Positions 2,579 through 6,075 of a stretch of DNA of 64,000 bases are shown here, one piece after another. The position numbers and the translations under genes were made by a program. The stretch spans positions 372,001-436,000 of the forward strand of contig NZ_AQXQ01000012.1 of NCBI RefSeq assembly GCF_000376865.1, written 5' to 3'. The notes under the pieces were generated by a model, which saw only the letters and a list, made by a program, of their open reading frames with translations, was not told the origin of the DNA and made no database searches. The stretch is from Thioalkalivibrio sp. ALJ7. Lineage in GTDB: Bacteria; Pseudomonadota; Gammaproteobacteria; Ectothiorhodospirales; Ectothiorhodospiraceae. Position 1 is the first letter of the stretch, and each line of letters opens with the position of its first letter.

Positions 2579-3703
2579 ATGCCCCGCACCCTCTGCTCGC
2601 TCCCGTTTATGTCGCTGCTGGCCGGCGCAGTGCTCGTGTTCGCCACGTTGCTTACCCTGCCGTCCGCTCAGGCCGAGGAAAATGGAGCCAGCGGCATCGG
2701 CGCCGACTCGACCCTGCGCGTGGGGACGCGCTTCGTGCCACCGTTCGTGATTGCGCCGGAGGAGCCGGGCGCCGCTCCTTCCGGCATTGCCATCGAACTG
2801 TGGGAGCGGGTCGCGGAACGCATGGAACTGGACTCCGACTACCGGGAGACCAGCCTCGAGGGACTCATCGAGGGCCTGGGCGACGACCGTATCGATATCT
2901 CGGTCGCGGCCCTCACCGCAACCGCCGAACGCGCCGAACGGGTCGACTTCACCCATCCGTACTACAGCACCGGGCTGTCGATTGCCGTGCCCCAACAAGG
3001 CAATCCAATCGCCGGGGCCCTGCGCGCGTTCATCTCCGTACCCTTCCTGATGGTCATCCTCGCGCTCTCCGGACTGCTCCTGCTAGTGGGTGCGCTGCTG
3101 TGGCTGTTCGAACGCCGGCGTAACGCCGACGAGTTCGGCGGCAGTGCCGCACAAGGGCTCGGCTCCGCATTCTGGTGGGCCGCCGTGACCATGACCACGG
3201 TGGGCTATGGCGACAAGGCTCCGCGCACCCTGCCCGGCCGCGCGATCGCGCTGGTCTGGATGTTCGCGGCGCTGATCCTGGTCTCCACCTTCACCGCCGC
3301 GATCGCGACCACGCTGACCGTCAGCTCGCTGGATACCGGCATCCAGAATGTCTCCGACCTGGAGGGCCAGCGCATCGCCACGATTGGCGGCTCCAGTGCC
3401 GCCGCCTGGCTGGACGACCAGGGCTTTGCCTACCGCGACCATGTGGACCTCGCCACCGCACTGGGCGCAGTCGCCGAGGGCCGCGCCGACGCTATGGTCT
3501 ACGACGCTCCGCTGCTGCGCTATCAGGTCCGCGAGCACTTTGCGGGGCAACTGGAGGTCCTGCCGGTCGAGTTCCTGCGCCAGGACTATGCCCTGGCACT
3601 GCCCCAGGGGTCGCCACTGCGCGCCCCGATGAACGTCGCTATCCTCGAGATTCTGGAATCCGACGAATGGCAGCGCGTGCTGCGCCGCTATCTCGGCAAC
3701 TGA
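2579..3703 (+). CDS. GluR0-like ligand-gated potassium channel (periplasmic binding domain split by a K+ pore)
   Basis: 374 residues. A signal peptide (about 1-32, ending PSAQA) is followed by lobe 1 of a family-3 solute-binding domain, including ALTATAERAERVDFTHPYY (about 111-129), the usual amino-acid-binding-protein motif. The domain is interrupted by a pore module: a helix at about 152-177, a pore loop with the potassium selectivity filter TTVGYGD (206-212), and a second helix at about 221-246. The rest of the binding domain (about 255-374) follows. This is the layout of prokaryotic ionotropic glutamate receptors such as cyanobacterial GluR0: ligand bound outside opens a K+ pore. The ligand cannot be told from sequence; an amino acid is the family norm. 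It heads a tight three-gene unit with two PII-like genes (gaps of 27 and 25 bases). Confidence 0.88.
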   Translation: MPRTLCSLPFMSLLAGAVLVFATLLTLPSAQAEENGASGIGADSTLRVGTRFVPPFVIAPEEPGAAPSGIAIELWERVAERMELDSDYRETSLEGLIEGLGDDRIDISVAALTATAERAERVDFTHPYYSTGLSIAVPQQGNPIAGALRAFISVPFLMVILALSGLLLLVGALLWLFERRRNADEFGGSAAQGLGSAFWWAAVTMTTVGYGDKAPRTLPGRAIALVWMFAALILVSTFTAAIATTLTVSSLDTGIQNVSDLEGQRIATIGGSSAAAWLDDQGFAYRDHVDLATALGAVAEGRADAMVYDAPLLRYQVREHFAGQLEVLPVEFLRQDYALALPQGSPLRAPMNVAILEILESDEWQRVLRRYLGN

Positions 3704-3730
3704 CGGAGCCCGTCACGGGGGGGCAGCATC

Positions 3731-4060
3731 ATGGAGGAGACCTTTCTGATCGCGATCGTCGACCAGGACCGTGAGGAGCAGGCCCTGGCCATCGCCGCCG
3801 AGGAAGGCGGCGCGGACGGTGCCGTGATCCAGGGTTCGGGGCTCGGTTTCCCCGAGCACATGATCTTTCTCGGGGTGACCTACCAGGGCAACGAATCGGT
3901 CTGCATCTGGCAGCTGGAGACCGGGCAGGCCGAACGCATTGCGCAGCGCCTGAACCTAGAACTCGACCTGCTCCAGCCCTACAACGGGCTTGCCTTCACC
4001 CTGGACGTGAGCGCCCTTCAGGGCATGGAGTTCGTCGGCCACCTGACCACCATGCCCTGA
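3731..4060 (+). CDS. PII-like (GlnB-fold) small protein, first of a pair
   Basis: 109 residues. The N-terminus FLIAIVDQDREEQALAIAAE followed by GADGAVIQGSGLG has the beta-alpha-beta rhythm and Gly-rich turn of the PII family (compare the ITAIVRPxKLxxVxxAL...GxxGxTVxxVxGxG pattern). There is no recognisable long T-loop and no uridylylation tyrosine in the usual context, so it is better called PII-like than GlnB. PII-like proteins sense nucleotides or small metabolites and bind a partner, very often a membrane transporter. It lies 27 bases after the ligand-gated channel gene and 25 bases before a second protein of similar fold, so the channel is the obvious candidate partner (inference). Family assignment rests on pattern only. 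Confidence 0.6.
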   Translation: MEETFLIAIVDQDREEQALAIAAEEGGADGAVIQGSGLGFPEHMIFLGVTYQGNESVCIWQLETGQAERIAQRLNLELDLLQPYNGLAFTLDVSALQGMEFVGHLTTMP

Positions 4061-4085
4061 CGCGCCCGGATACGGAGACTCTGCC

Positions 4086-4460
4086 ATGCAATTCGTTCTG
4101 CTCGCCGCCATCATCCCGCGCAGCCTGGCCGAACGCGCGATCGAGATCGTTCAGCGCGACGGGGCTGCCGGCCTGACCCTACTGGATGCCCAAAGCATCG
4201 CCCAGCTACGGCGCAACCCGGTCATGGACCTGAAGGACACCTCCGTTCGCAAGGTGCTGTTAATGGTGCTGGAGGCCGATCTGGCCCGCCGCATGCTGGA
4301 ACACCTGGACGCGGAACTGGAACTGAGCCGGCAGGGCCACGGGTTTGCTGTGACCCTGCCGATCAAGGACATCGCCGGCATCAAGCCGGAACAGATCGAG
4401 CAGCTGCGCAAGACCCTGGAGCAGAGTCCGTCCGACGGAGACGCCACGCCGAGAGCATAA
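4086..4460 (+). CDS. PII-like (GlnB-fold) small protein, second of a pair
   Basis: 124 residues, starting FVLLAAIIPRSLAERAIEIV, then AAGLTLLDAQSI; the later strand GFAVTLPIKDIAGI fits the closing half of a PII-like ferredoxin fold. It is only distantly similar to its neighbour, so the pair could form a heteromer or two separate sensors. The segment LRRNPVMDLKDTSVRKVLLMVL sits where a T-loop would be. It ends in an acidic tail of about 20 residues. It is the last gene of the channel unit and converges on the BCCT transporter gene, 70 bases away. A weak inverted repeat (CCCTGG at 4517-4522, CCAGGG at 4537-4542) lies between and over the end of the transporter gene. No enzyme motifs are visible. 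Confidence 0.55.
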   Translation: MQFVLLAAIIPRSLAERAIEIVQRDGAAGLTLLDAQSIAQLRRNPVMDLKDTSVRKVLLMVLEADLARRMLEHLDAELELSRQGHGFAVTLPIKDIAGIKPEQIEQLRKTLEQSPSDGDATPRA

Positions 4461-4530: not shown

Positions 4531-6075
4531 TCAACGCCAGGGCGGGTCCACGCCCTCGACGCGGTACTCGCGGCCCAGGGCCCGCATCAGGCTGAAGCAG
4601 CAGAAGACCAGGATGATCGCCACCGGCAGCCCGGCGGTCAGCGATCCGGTCTGCAGGCTGTCCAGCGCGCGCTCGCCACCGACGATCAGCAGCGTCGCCG
4701 CCACCGCCCCCTCGGTAATCCCCCAGATCACCCGCTGGCGCTTCGGCGAGTGCTTCGAACCGCGCGAGATCAGCGCATCCACCACGTAGGTGCCGGAGGC
4801 CGACGAGGTAATGAAGTAGGTCGCGATCAGCAGGGTCGCCACGCCGGAGGCAATCGTGGTCCAGGGTAGCTGGGCCAGGGTTGCGTACAGGGCCACGGTG
4901 GTGTCCTCGGCGACCGCCGCAGCGATGCCCGCGCCGTCGTCGAACAGCTCCATATGCAGCGCGGTGCCGCCGAAGATTGCCATCCAGGCGAACACGAACA
5001 GGCTGGGCAGGGCGAGCACGCCGACGATGAACTCGCGGATGGTGCGCCCGCGCGAGATGCGCGCGATGAAGATGCCGACGAAAGGCGACCAGGCGATCCA
5101 CCACGCCCAGTAGAACATGGTCCAGTCCTTCTGCCACTGCGAGCCGCCGATGGCGTCGGTATGCAGGCTGAGCTGGACGATCTGCTGCAGATAGCCGCCG
5201 GTGGAGTCGAGGAAGAAGCGCAGGATGAACAGCGTGGGCCCGGCCACCAAGACGAACAGCATGAAGCTGATCGCCAGTACCAGGTTGAACACGCTGACCC
5301 ACTTCAGCCCGCGATCGAGCCCGGAGATCACCGACAGCACCGCCACCGCGGTGATCGCGGTGATGATGCCCACCTGCCACCAGTGTGAGACCGGCATGTC
5401 GACCAGCACGTTGAGCCCGGTATTGAGCTGCATCGCGCCGAATCCCAGCGAGGTCGCCAGGCCAAACAGGGTGCCGAACACTGCGAGGATGTCGATCACA
5501 TGCCCGATCGGGCCGTAGATGCGGTCCCCCAGCAGCGGGTAGAAGATCGAGCGAATGGTCAGCGGCAGACGGTGGCGAAAGCTGAAATAGGCGACCGACA
5601 GTCCCAGAACCACGTACACCGCCCAGGCGTGCAGGCCCCAGTGGAAGAAGGTGTAGACCATCGCCTGGCGCGCGGCCGCGTCGGTCTCGCCATCGCCGGT
5701 CGGCGGATGCTGATAGTGCAGGATCGGCTCGGCCACGCTCCAGAACACGAGGCCGATCCCCATGCCGGCGGAGAACAGCATCGCGAACCAGGCGGCAAAG
5801 CCGAACTCCGGCCGGTCATCCGGCTGCCCCAGCCGGATCACGCCGTAGCGGCTGAAGCCCAGCCAGATCAGAAAGCCGAGGAAGAAGGTCACCACCAGCA
5901 GGTAGCCCCAGCCGAGATACTCGGTGATGAAGCCGTGGATGCTGGCGAACACCTCGCTGGCCGTGGCGGGGAAGATCACCCCGAAGGCGACGAACACCAC
6001 GACCATGATCGCGGAGGCGGTGAACACCGTCGGGTTCACCGTGGCAAAGAAGGCCTCCGGGCGGTAGTCACTCAT
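4531..6075 (-). CDS. BCCT-family compatible-solute transporter (betaine/choline/carnitine type)
   Basis: 514 residues with about 12 hydrophobic helices, the normal BCCT core length without the long cytoplasmic extensions of BetP. Signatures are FSAGMGIGLVFWSVAEP (about 101-117, the glycine-rich unwound TM3 and start of the substrate tryptophan region) and DWTMFYWAWWIAWSPFVGIF (about 317-336, the TM8 BCCT signature). The GMGIG sequence is typical of Na+-driven betaine or choline carriers; precise substrate (glycine betaine, choline or ectoine) cannot be fixed. Such carriers import osmoprotectant by secondary transport and suit a halophile. It lies upstream of the PEBP-like gene's 3' end on the same strand (24 bases) and converges with the channel/PII unit. 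Confidence 0.93.
   Translation of the reverse strand: MSDYRPEAFFATVNPTVFTASAIMVVVFVAFGVIFPATASEVFASIHGFITEYLGWGYLLVVTFFLGFLIWLGFSRYGVIRLGQPDDRPEFGFAAWFAMLFSAGMGIGLVFWSVAEPILHYQHPPTGDGETDAAARQAMVYTFFHWGLHAWAVYVVLGLSVAYFSFRHRLPLTIRSIFYPLLGDRIYGPIGHVIDILAVFGTLFGLATSLGFGAMQLNTGLNVLVDMPVSHWWQVGIITAITAVAVLSVISGLDRGLKWVSVFNLVLAISFMLFVLVAGPTLFILRFFLDSTGGYLQQIVQLSLHTDAIGGSQWQKDWTMFYWAWWIAWSPFVGIFIARISRGRTIREFIVGVLALPSLFVFAWMAIFGGTALHMELFDDGAGIAAAVAEDTTVALYATLAQLPWTTIASGVATLLIATYFITSSASGTYVVDALISRGSKHSPKRQRVIWGITEGAVAATLLIVGGERALDSLQTGSLTAGLPVAIILVFCCFSLMRALGREYRVEGVDPPWR

Follow-up and report, generated by a model that had tools for sequence, protein, structure and literature searches.

PII proteins, the classical nitrogen sensors, are known above all as plugs of trimeric transporters, and K+ channels are tetramers. 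In Gram-positive bacteria, DarA/PstA and DarB/CbpB are receptors of cyclic di-AMP (c-di-AMP) linked to K+. Here, we describe a locus of the soda-lake bacterium Thioalkalivibrio sp. ALJ7 (genome G000, 2.7 Mb), located in a window of 64,000 nucleotides (contig NZ_AQXQ01000012.1, positions 372,001 to 436,000), in which a gene for a putative GluR0-type K+ channel precedes two small genes, PII-A and PII-B, predicted to encode PII-like proteins. Among described channels, the closest is GluR0 of Synechocystis (slr1257), a Group 1 receptor. GluR0 is reported to restore K+ uptake in E. coli and to be a plasma membrane protein whose two ends face outward; this type of channel binds glutamate in cyanobacteria, GluR0 affects cell volume in high KCl, and cells from which it was removed grow better on agar with high KCl but not in liquid medium (PMC13099474). 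In prokaryotic receptors, the amino acid is held by an Arg in the first half (S1) and an Asp in the second half (S2) of the binding domain (PMC2950845). Regarding small PII-fold proteins tied to a membrane transport protein, the closest cases are GlnK/AmtB and SbtB/SbtA: AmtB and SbtA are trimers, which PII proteins plug and lock, respectively, and ABC transporters are also named as PII targets (PMC10710835). Finally, a Na+(Li+,K+)/H+ antiporter function is reported for UmpAB of Halomonas zhaodongensis (PMC5484666), and the searched passages of that paper mention neither PII (or P-II) nor CBS.

The Thioalkalivibrio channel resembles GluR0 and the other Group 1 receptors in its split domain, its two helices, its K+ filter and its Arg/Asp pair (PMC2950845). 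Indeed, in the Pfam layout SBP_bac_3 spans a Lig_chan / Ion_trans_2 segment, i.e., a solute-binding domain is split by an M1-P-M2 pore, and each of the two halves, S1 and S2, can be aligned on its own to the solved domains 2pyy and 1iit; among solved structures, the best relatives of the channel are 2pyy and 1iit/1ii5, domains of bacterial glutamate receptors. The motif TTVGYGD lies between two hydrophobic segments and, from hydropathy, the N-terminus is signal-peptide-like. This filter, Arg118 and Asp309 are invariant in the 13 aligned channels, and we take the two residues as the counterparts of those holding the amino acid in prokaryotic receptors. The preliminary description of this locus had proposed a GluR0-type channel, and in its sequence the protein indeed has each of the Group 1 features tested, namely the split domain, the K+ filter and the Arg/Asp pair; we infer a small amino acid as agonist and K+ conduction. 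The signal-peptide-like start fits a topology with both ends outside, and the two cytosolic linkers predicted from the GluR0 topology, with six Lys/Arg and four Asp/Glu, are only slightly positive. Unlike GluR0, the window channel is encoded together with two PII-like genes, belongs to haloalkaliphilic sulfur oxidisers and is known from genes alone. It also differs from the AmtB and SbtA systems, the neighbour being here a ligand-gated channel and the PII-like proteins being two and different.

For these two small proteins, single sequences were not enough to call the PII fold, since the Pfam P-II family gave no match for PII-A and, for PII-B, a match of 13.3 bits (E=0.11) against a cut-off of 25. 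A paralogue encoded elsewhere in the genome (G000:C8) scores 26.5 bits, above this cut-off, and 36 of 56 family members reach E <= 0.01 (5 of the 56 also match Clp_N, with a best E of 0.00012). Two family alignments were built from the 64 distinct PII proteins found: A1 with 56 of them (8 close copies dropped) and A2 with 45 (8 close copies and 11 B-type rows dropped). Against PDB, A2 matched 25 sequences at E up to 1; the first 19 consist of 18 PII or PII-like proteins by name or title and one "Signaling protein", and later ones include beta-lactamases. With the AlphaFold2 models of PII-A and PII-B, all 50 matches listed by VIA-align for each are PII or PII-like, SbtB being among the best structural matches; the Foldseek matches listed for PII-A include CutA1 entries as well. 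Family profiles and models thus predict a ferredoxin-like PII fold for both proteins, in agreement with what had been proposed from the sequence, although neither passes the Pfam cut-off alone. Given the structural matches, bicarbonate control (SbtA, carboxysome CPII) was considered as a candidate function, with no SbtA search made.

As first described, the three genes form a compact unit on one strand, with gaps of exactly 27 and 25 bases (Table 1), and are likely co-transcribed. The preliminary description also called for a search of the three-gene order in other genomes. Of the 96 genomes in our sample, 30 belong to the genus, the own genome among them, and 66 are other relatives. A close channel (84-100% identity) is present in 8/96 genomes, closest in G004, and in each of the eight PII-A and PII-B lie directly downstream, with a channel-to-PII-A gap of 26-29 bases; the gap between PII-A and PII-B reaches ~300 (G001) and ~290 bases (G025) and is short in the other pairs. 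The order thus recurs, albeit confined to one genus (8/30; 0/66 among the other relatives). Channels of 40-46% identity occur in five further genomes (G003, G016, G027, G056 and G084), with no PII match within 4 kb, the contigs of G003 and G084 being only 6.4 and 5.3 kb long. Likewise, in a sample of 200 genomes of the phylum (thresholds: PII E <= 1e-10, DUF1538 E <= 1e-20, channel E <= 1e-40), 12 have such a channel, and in the 11 besides the own genome no PII match was found on the channel contig. All three genes are under purifying selection, with pairwise ratios of nonsynonymous to synonymous divergence (dN/dS) of 0.07-0.18 for the channel, 0.04-0.26 for PII-A and 0.06-0.34 for PII-B. The trio combines a known type of channel with a PII-like family in a variant limited to this genus.

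A clue to function comes from the PII family itself, most members of which are encoded beside cation antiporters. Among the 96 relatives, 56 have both the PII family and DUF1538, the domain of UmpAB, 39 have neither and one (G014) has DUF1538 alone, so that DUF1538 accompanies the PII family in 56/56 PII-bearing relatives. With matches at E <= 0.001 and a limit of 4 kb, some misses being caused by contig ends, 67 of the 106 PII genes of these relatives are near a DUF1538 gene; 16 are at the eight channel loci, where 2 also adjoin NhaP2, a K+/H+ antiporter, 9 are beside NhaP2 without a channel and 14 are elsewhere. In the phylum sample, both families are present in 74 genomes, PII alone in 6, DUF1538 alone in 9 and neither in 111, kinship being ignored in these counts, and at least 66 of 102 PII genes are within 3 kb of a DUF1538 gene. 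The own genome follows this pattern: its third PII gene (G000:C8, L100:5161-7465) stands between an UmpA-UmpB fusion gene (DUF1538) and a CBS-domain gene in an operon-like arrangement, on a different contig from the trio. CBS genes also adjoin four of the 14 PII genes found elsewhere (G031, G078, G079 and, by cluster, G045:C1). A description of the link between this PII family and UmpAB was not found in the literature searched, nor, in titles and abstract starts of open-access literature, that of a unit of PII and a K+ channel. The association of PII, UmpAB and CBS in general is probably a more important result than the trio. The setting recalls that of DarA/PstA and DarB/CbpB, i.e., a PII-like and a CBS protein in K+ homeostasis; unlike in those systems, no diadenylate cyclase domain (PF02457) was found in G000, a domain found in 11/14 control genomes, and c-di-AMP is thus an unlikely ligand.

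The trio differs from the UmpAB units in having no adjoining UmpAB (DUF1538) or CBS gene, even though the tree places the origin of PII-A and PII-B in the UmpAB-linked family, the cation transport setting being common to both. In a tree of 64 rows, computed without the G007 and G013 pairs (midpoint root, few columns, long-branch warning), an A-type clade of 29 rows is separated from a B/C-type clade of 35 rows (support 97/93). PII-A nests in the former, and PII-B joins the latter on a long branch flagged by the program. The two proteins are therefore old paralogues and not products of a recent tandem duplication. Outside the pairs, the nearest relatives of PII-A are the copies of G042 and G046 (99/85). 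An Arg-Gly motif is found in 35/37 aligned members not belonging to the pairs (14/15 A-like, 17/18 of a mostly UmpAB-linked group and 4/4 distant); one of the two exceptions is the NhaP2-linked protein of G045.

Beyond the UmpAB units, cation transport genes recur near the family. At G045:C4 (L103:3680-5883), a deep-branching PII-like gene lies directly upstream, on the same strand, of an NhaP2-type K+/H+ antiporter gene, and in G018 and G027 (L112:3791-6962, L135:3374-6554) a PII-like gene lies directly upstream of a P-type cation ATPase gene. Of the 12 close pairs, 8 have the channel, 5 have NhaP2 directly downstream on the opposite strand (G002, G005, G021, G022 and G029), one has both (G005) and none has neither, these being small numbers from related genomes; the four pairs without the channel are each beside NhaP2. 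A further NhaP2 match exists elsewhere in the pair-bearing genomes, including G007 and G013, where that of G007 is in pieces at contig ends. In two genomes lacking the channel, traces of it may persist upstream of PII-A, where its 3' end would be expected. When compared with 100 shuffles, 41/54 bases in G002 resemble the channel 3' end of G001 and G025 (score 43; shuffle maxima 36 and 34), and 31/38 bases in G022 resemble that of G025 (score 41; shuffle maximum 36), the score of G022 against G001 (36) being equal to the shuffle maximum; neither genome gave a match with G005 or G000 as reference. For G029, the score of 33 with G000 as reference (shuffle maximum 31) fell at another place, and in G021 and G029 nothing else exceeded the shuffles and nothing was found at the expected place. 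A possible decayed 3' end thus suggests, without proof, a loss of the channel in G002 and, more weakly, in G022 (stretches L094 and L099). As an anecdote, strain K90mix comes from an enrichment for tolerance of potassium carbonate (PMC3368412), and G029, putatively this strain, has NhaP2 and no channel at the locus, which would fit channel and antiporter as alternative K+ routes.

Table 1. Features of the channel-PII locus (positions in the window).
Feature	Position	Strand	Basis
GluR0-type K+ channel gene (putative), 374 amino acids	2579..3703	+	Pfam, PDB relatives, 84-97% identical orthologues in 7 other genomes of the genus
Predicted signal peptide, residues 1-32, end AQA	2579..2674	+	Hydropathy; cleavage site inferred from sequence
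S1, first half of the amino-acid-binding domain	2714..2989	+	Alignment to 2pyy and 1iit
Arg118 codon, in S1	2930-2932	+	Invariant in 13/13 aligned channels
Predicted transmembrane helix M1, ~residues 153-176	3035..3106	+	Hydropathy
K+ selectivity filter TTVGYGD, residues 206-212	3194..3214	+	Invariant in 13/13
Predicted transmembrane helix M2, ~residues 222-247	3242..3319	+	Hydropathy
S2, second half of the amino-acid-binding domain	3338..3697	+	Alignment to 2pyy and 1iit
Asp309 codon, in S2	3503-3505	+	Invariant in 13/13 aligned channels
PII-A, 109 amino acids, PII-like, A-type clade	3731..4060	+	
PII-B, 124 amino acids, diverged PII-like, B/C-type clade	4086..4460	+	

Upstream of the channel and divergent from it is a methyltransferase-DUF429 gene. 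In the window, it is a single frame of 666 amino acids (499-2499) with methyltransferase and DUF429 domains, and L091 has two overlapping frames of the same cluster. Downstream of the trio, the genes vary between genomes (BCCT, NhaP2, lexA-like). In the window, a betaine carrier gene of the BCCT family (4531-6075) follows PII-B on the opposite strand; being convergent, it stands outside the channel-PII unit. The osmoprotectant carrier reported next door in the preliminary description is hence there, but as a neighbour of variable presence and not as a part of the unit; taken as a whole, that earlier interpretation is partly supported.

The explanation we favour, tentatively and with somewhat less than even confidence, is that the trio is a unit of cation/osmotic homeostasis and that its PII pair serves to adjust the flux of K+. 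On the outside, the GluR0-type channel would sense a small amino acid and let K+ down its gradient, while inside the two PII-like proteins, which come from a family usually accompanying UmpAB, would sense a cytosolic signal, probably not c-di-AMP but possibly a nucleotide or another small ligand. At loci with the channel, the PII pair would act on the K+ flux through it, and at loci where NhaP2 is the neighbour, on the flux through this antiporter. For the functional link between the PII pair and cation flux as such, our estimate is a little under one half.

Several observations weigh against this explanation. The trio has apparently a single origin in one genus, so that the conservation of its order amounts to one event followed by inheritance. 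Co-transcription rests on spacing, since a promoter scan at the locus found no promoter-like site (0.2 expected in shuffles), and a terminator scan there gave nothing useful. NhaP2 is convergent with the pair at 5/5 loci and so lies outside its unit. In G023 (L092), the synonymous divergence (dS) of the channel is 0.22 to G005 and 0.39 to G000, and that of PII-A is 0.17 to G000 and 0.72 to G005; recombination seems to have exchanged the channel gene separately from the PII genes adjoining it. The Arg-Gly motif is present in 0/19 paired PII proteins, PII-A and PII-B included, and its absence points to a changed ligand site, so that their ligand may differ or be absent. Moreover, not all relatives adjoin cation transporters. 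No channel or NhaP2 gene lies within 4 kb of the diverged pairs of G007 and G013 (4 PII genes), and the copies of G041 and G044 have no recognised transporter nearby, that of G041 being flanked by genes for protein N of a type II secretion system (T2SS) and for a kinase-like HATPase_c protein. In G042 and G046 (L114:4740-11503, L115:1041-10218), the PII-like gene is divergent to an adjoining glutamate synthase gene, an assignment made on the G046 copy. On its other side in G046, ~100 bases off, is a convergent gene for an MscK-like channel; its counterpart in G042 is separated from the PII-like gene by ~4.5 kb and an Abi_2 gene. Finally, distant genomes of the phylum repeatedly carry an additional PII copy close to an amino acid kinase family gene (L148-L153, L155, L156, L158, L160, L161, L163, L164, L166 and L167), which, searched on the L150 copy, looks like an N-acetylglutamate kinase gene; at 8/20 examined distant loci, an oxidoreductase gene is also near (ETF-QO domains on the L149 copy).

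Among the alternatives, the one that survives best, doubtful as it is, supposes that the PII pair acts on antiporters elsewhere in the cell (UmpAB, NhaP2) and that the channel shares the transcript only by being needed under the same osmotic conditions. The prevalence of UmpAB beside the family speaks for it, as do the presence of DUF1538 and NhaP2 genes elsewhere in all 12 genomes with close pairs and the persistence of the pair next to NhaP2 in the four close genomes without the channel. However, these genomes already have a dedicated PII gene beside UmpAB, and the paired proteins are without the Arg-Gly motif that the UmpAB-side PII proteins keep.

It is unlikely that one or both PII-like proteins directly gate the tetrameric channel from the cytoplasmic side in response to a cytosolic ligand, with the amino acid acting outside. 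The tight same-strand unit at 8/8 channel loci and the precedents of GlnK-AmtB and SbtB-SbtA argue for such a double gating, against which stands the mismatch of a threefold PII protein and a fourfold pore, an objection weakened by the ABC transporters among PII targets (PMC10710835). With both ends outside as in GluR0 (PMC13099474), the cytosolic surface would be limited to the predicted linkers of ~18 and 9 residues. Within the trio channels, these helix-pore linkers are well kept (15/18 and 9/9 conserved positions), though no more than M2 (25/26) and the pore (18/18), and they are of similar length in channels without PII neighbours, so that no trio-specific docking element is visible. The apparently independent recombination of the channel gene in G023 also argues against direct gating.

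We consider rather unlikely that the adjacency is incidental, i.e., that in one ancestor a channel gene happened to insert ahead of a PII pair already in place, and that its loss is now under way. The restriction to a single genus, the absence of the channel at 4/12 close pairs and the possible decayed 3' end in G002, weaker in G022, are in line with this scenario. Conversely, the order and the gap of 26-29 bases are kept in eight genomes despite differing downstream genes, and purifying selection acts on all three genes.

Improbable in our view is that the pair reports the glutamate or nitrogen state, matching K+ to its counter-ion glutamate, an alternative nearer to what the preliminary description had in mind. 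The nearest outside relatives of PII-A adjoin glutamate synthase (G042, G046), an amino acid kinase family gene is found close to distant PII copies, and the channel type binds glutamate in cyanobacteria (PMC13099474). Nevertheless, glutamate synthase was met at only 2/106 PII genes (no systematic search for it being made), most members adjoin UmpAB, and at the trio no nitrogen gene was recognised. As for a regulation of the betaine carrier by the pair, the BCCT gene is next to or near the pair at 7/12 close-pair loci, but its opposite strand (convergent in 7/7), its absence from the examined stretch of the other 5/12 and the NhaP2 gene lying between in G002 and G022 make this partnership very improbable.

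Returning to the double control judged unlikely above, by an amino acid outside and one or two PII-like proteins inside, it would if true make this channel, to our knowledge, the first PII-regulated tetrameric ion channel, and one PII family would have been handed between an antiporter, a channel and a pump within one bacterial family. The trio is also a compact natural system for asking what a bacterial glutamate receptor is for. More broadly, a branch of PII proteins linked to Na+/K+ antiporters, with one genus adding a link to a glutamate-receptor-type K+ channel, would give PII signalling a place in the salt and K+ homeostasis of Gram-negative bacteria.

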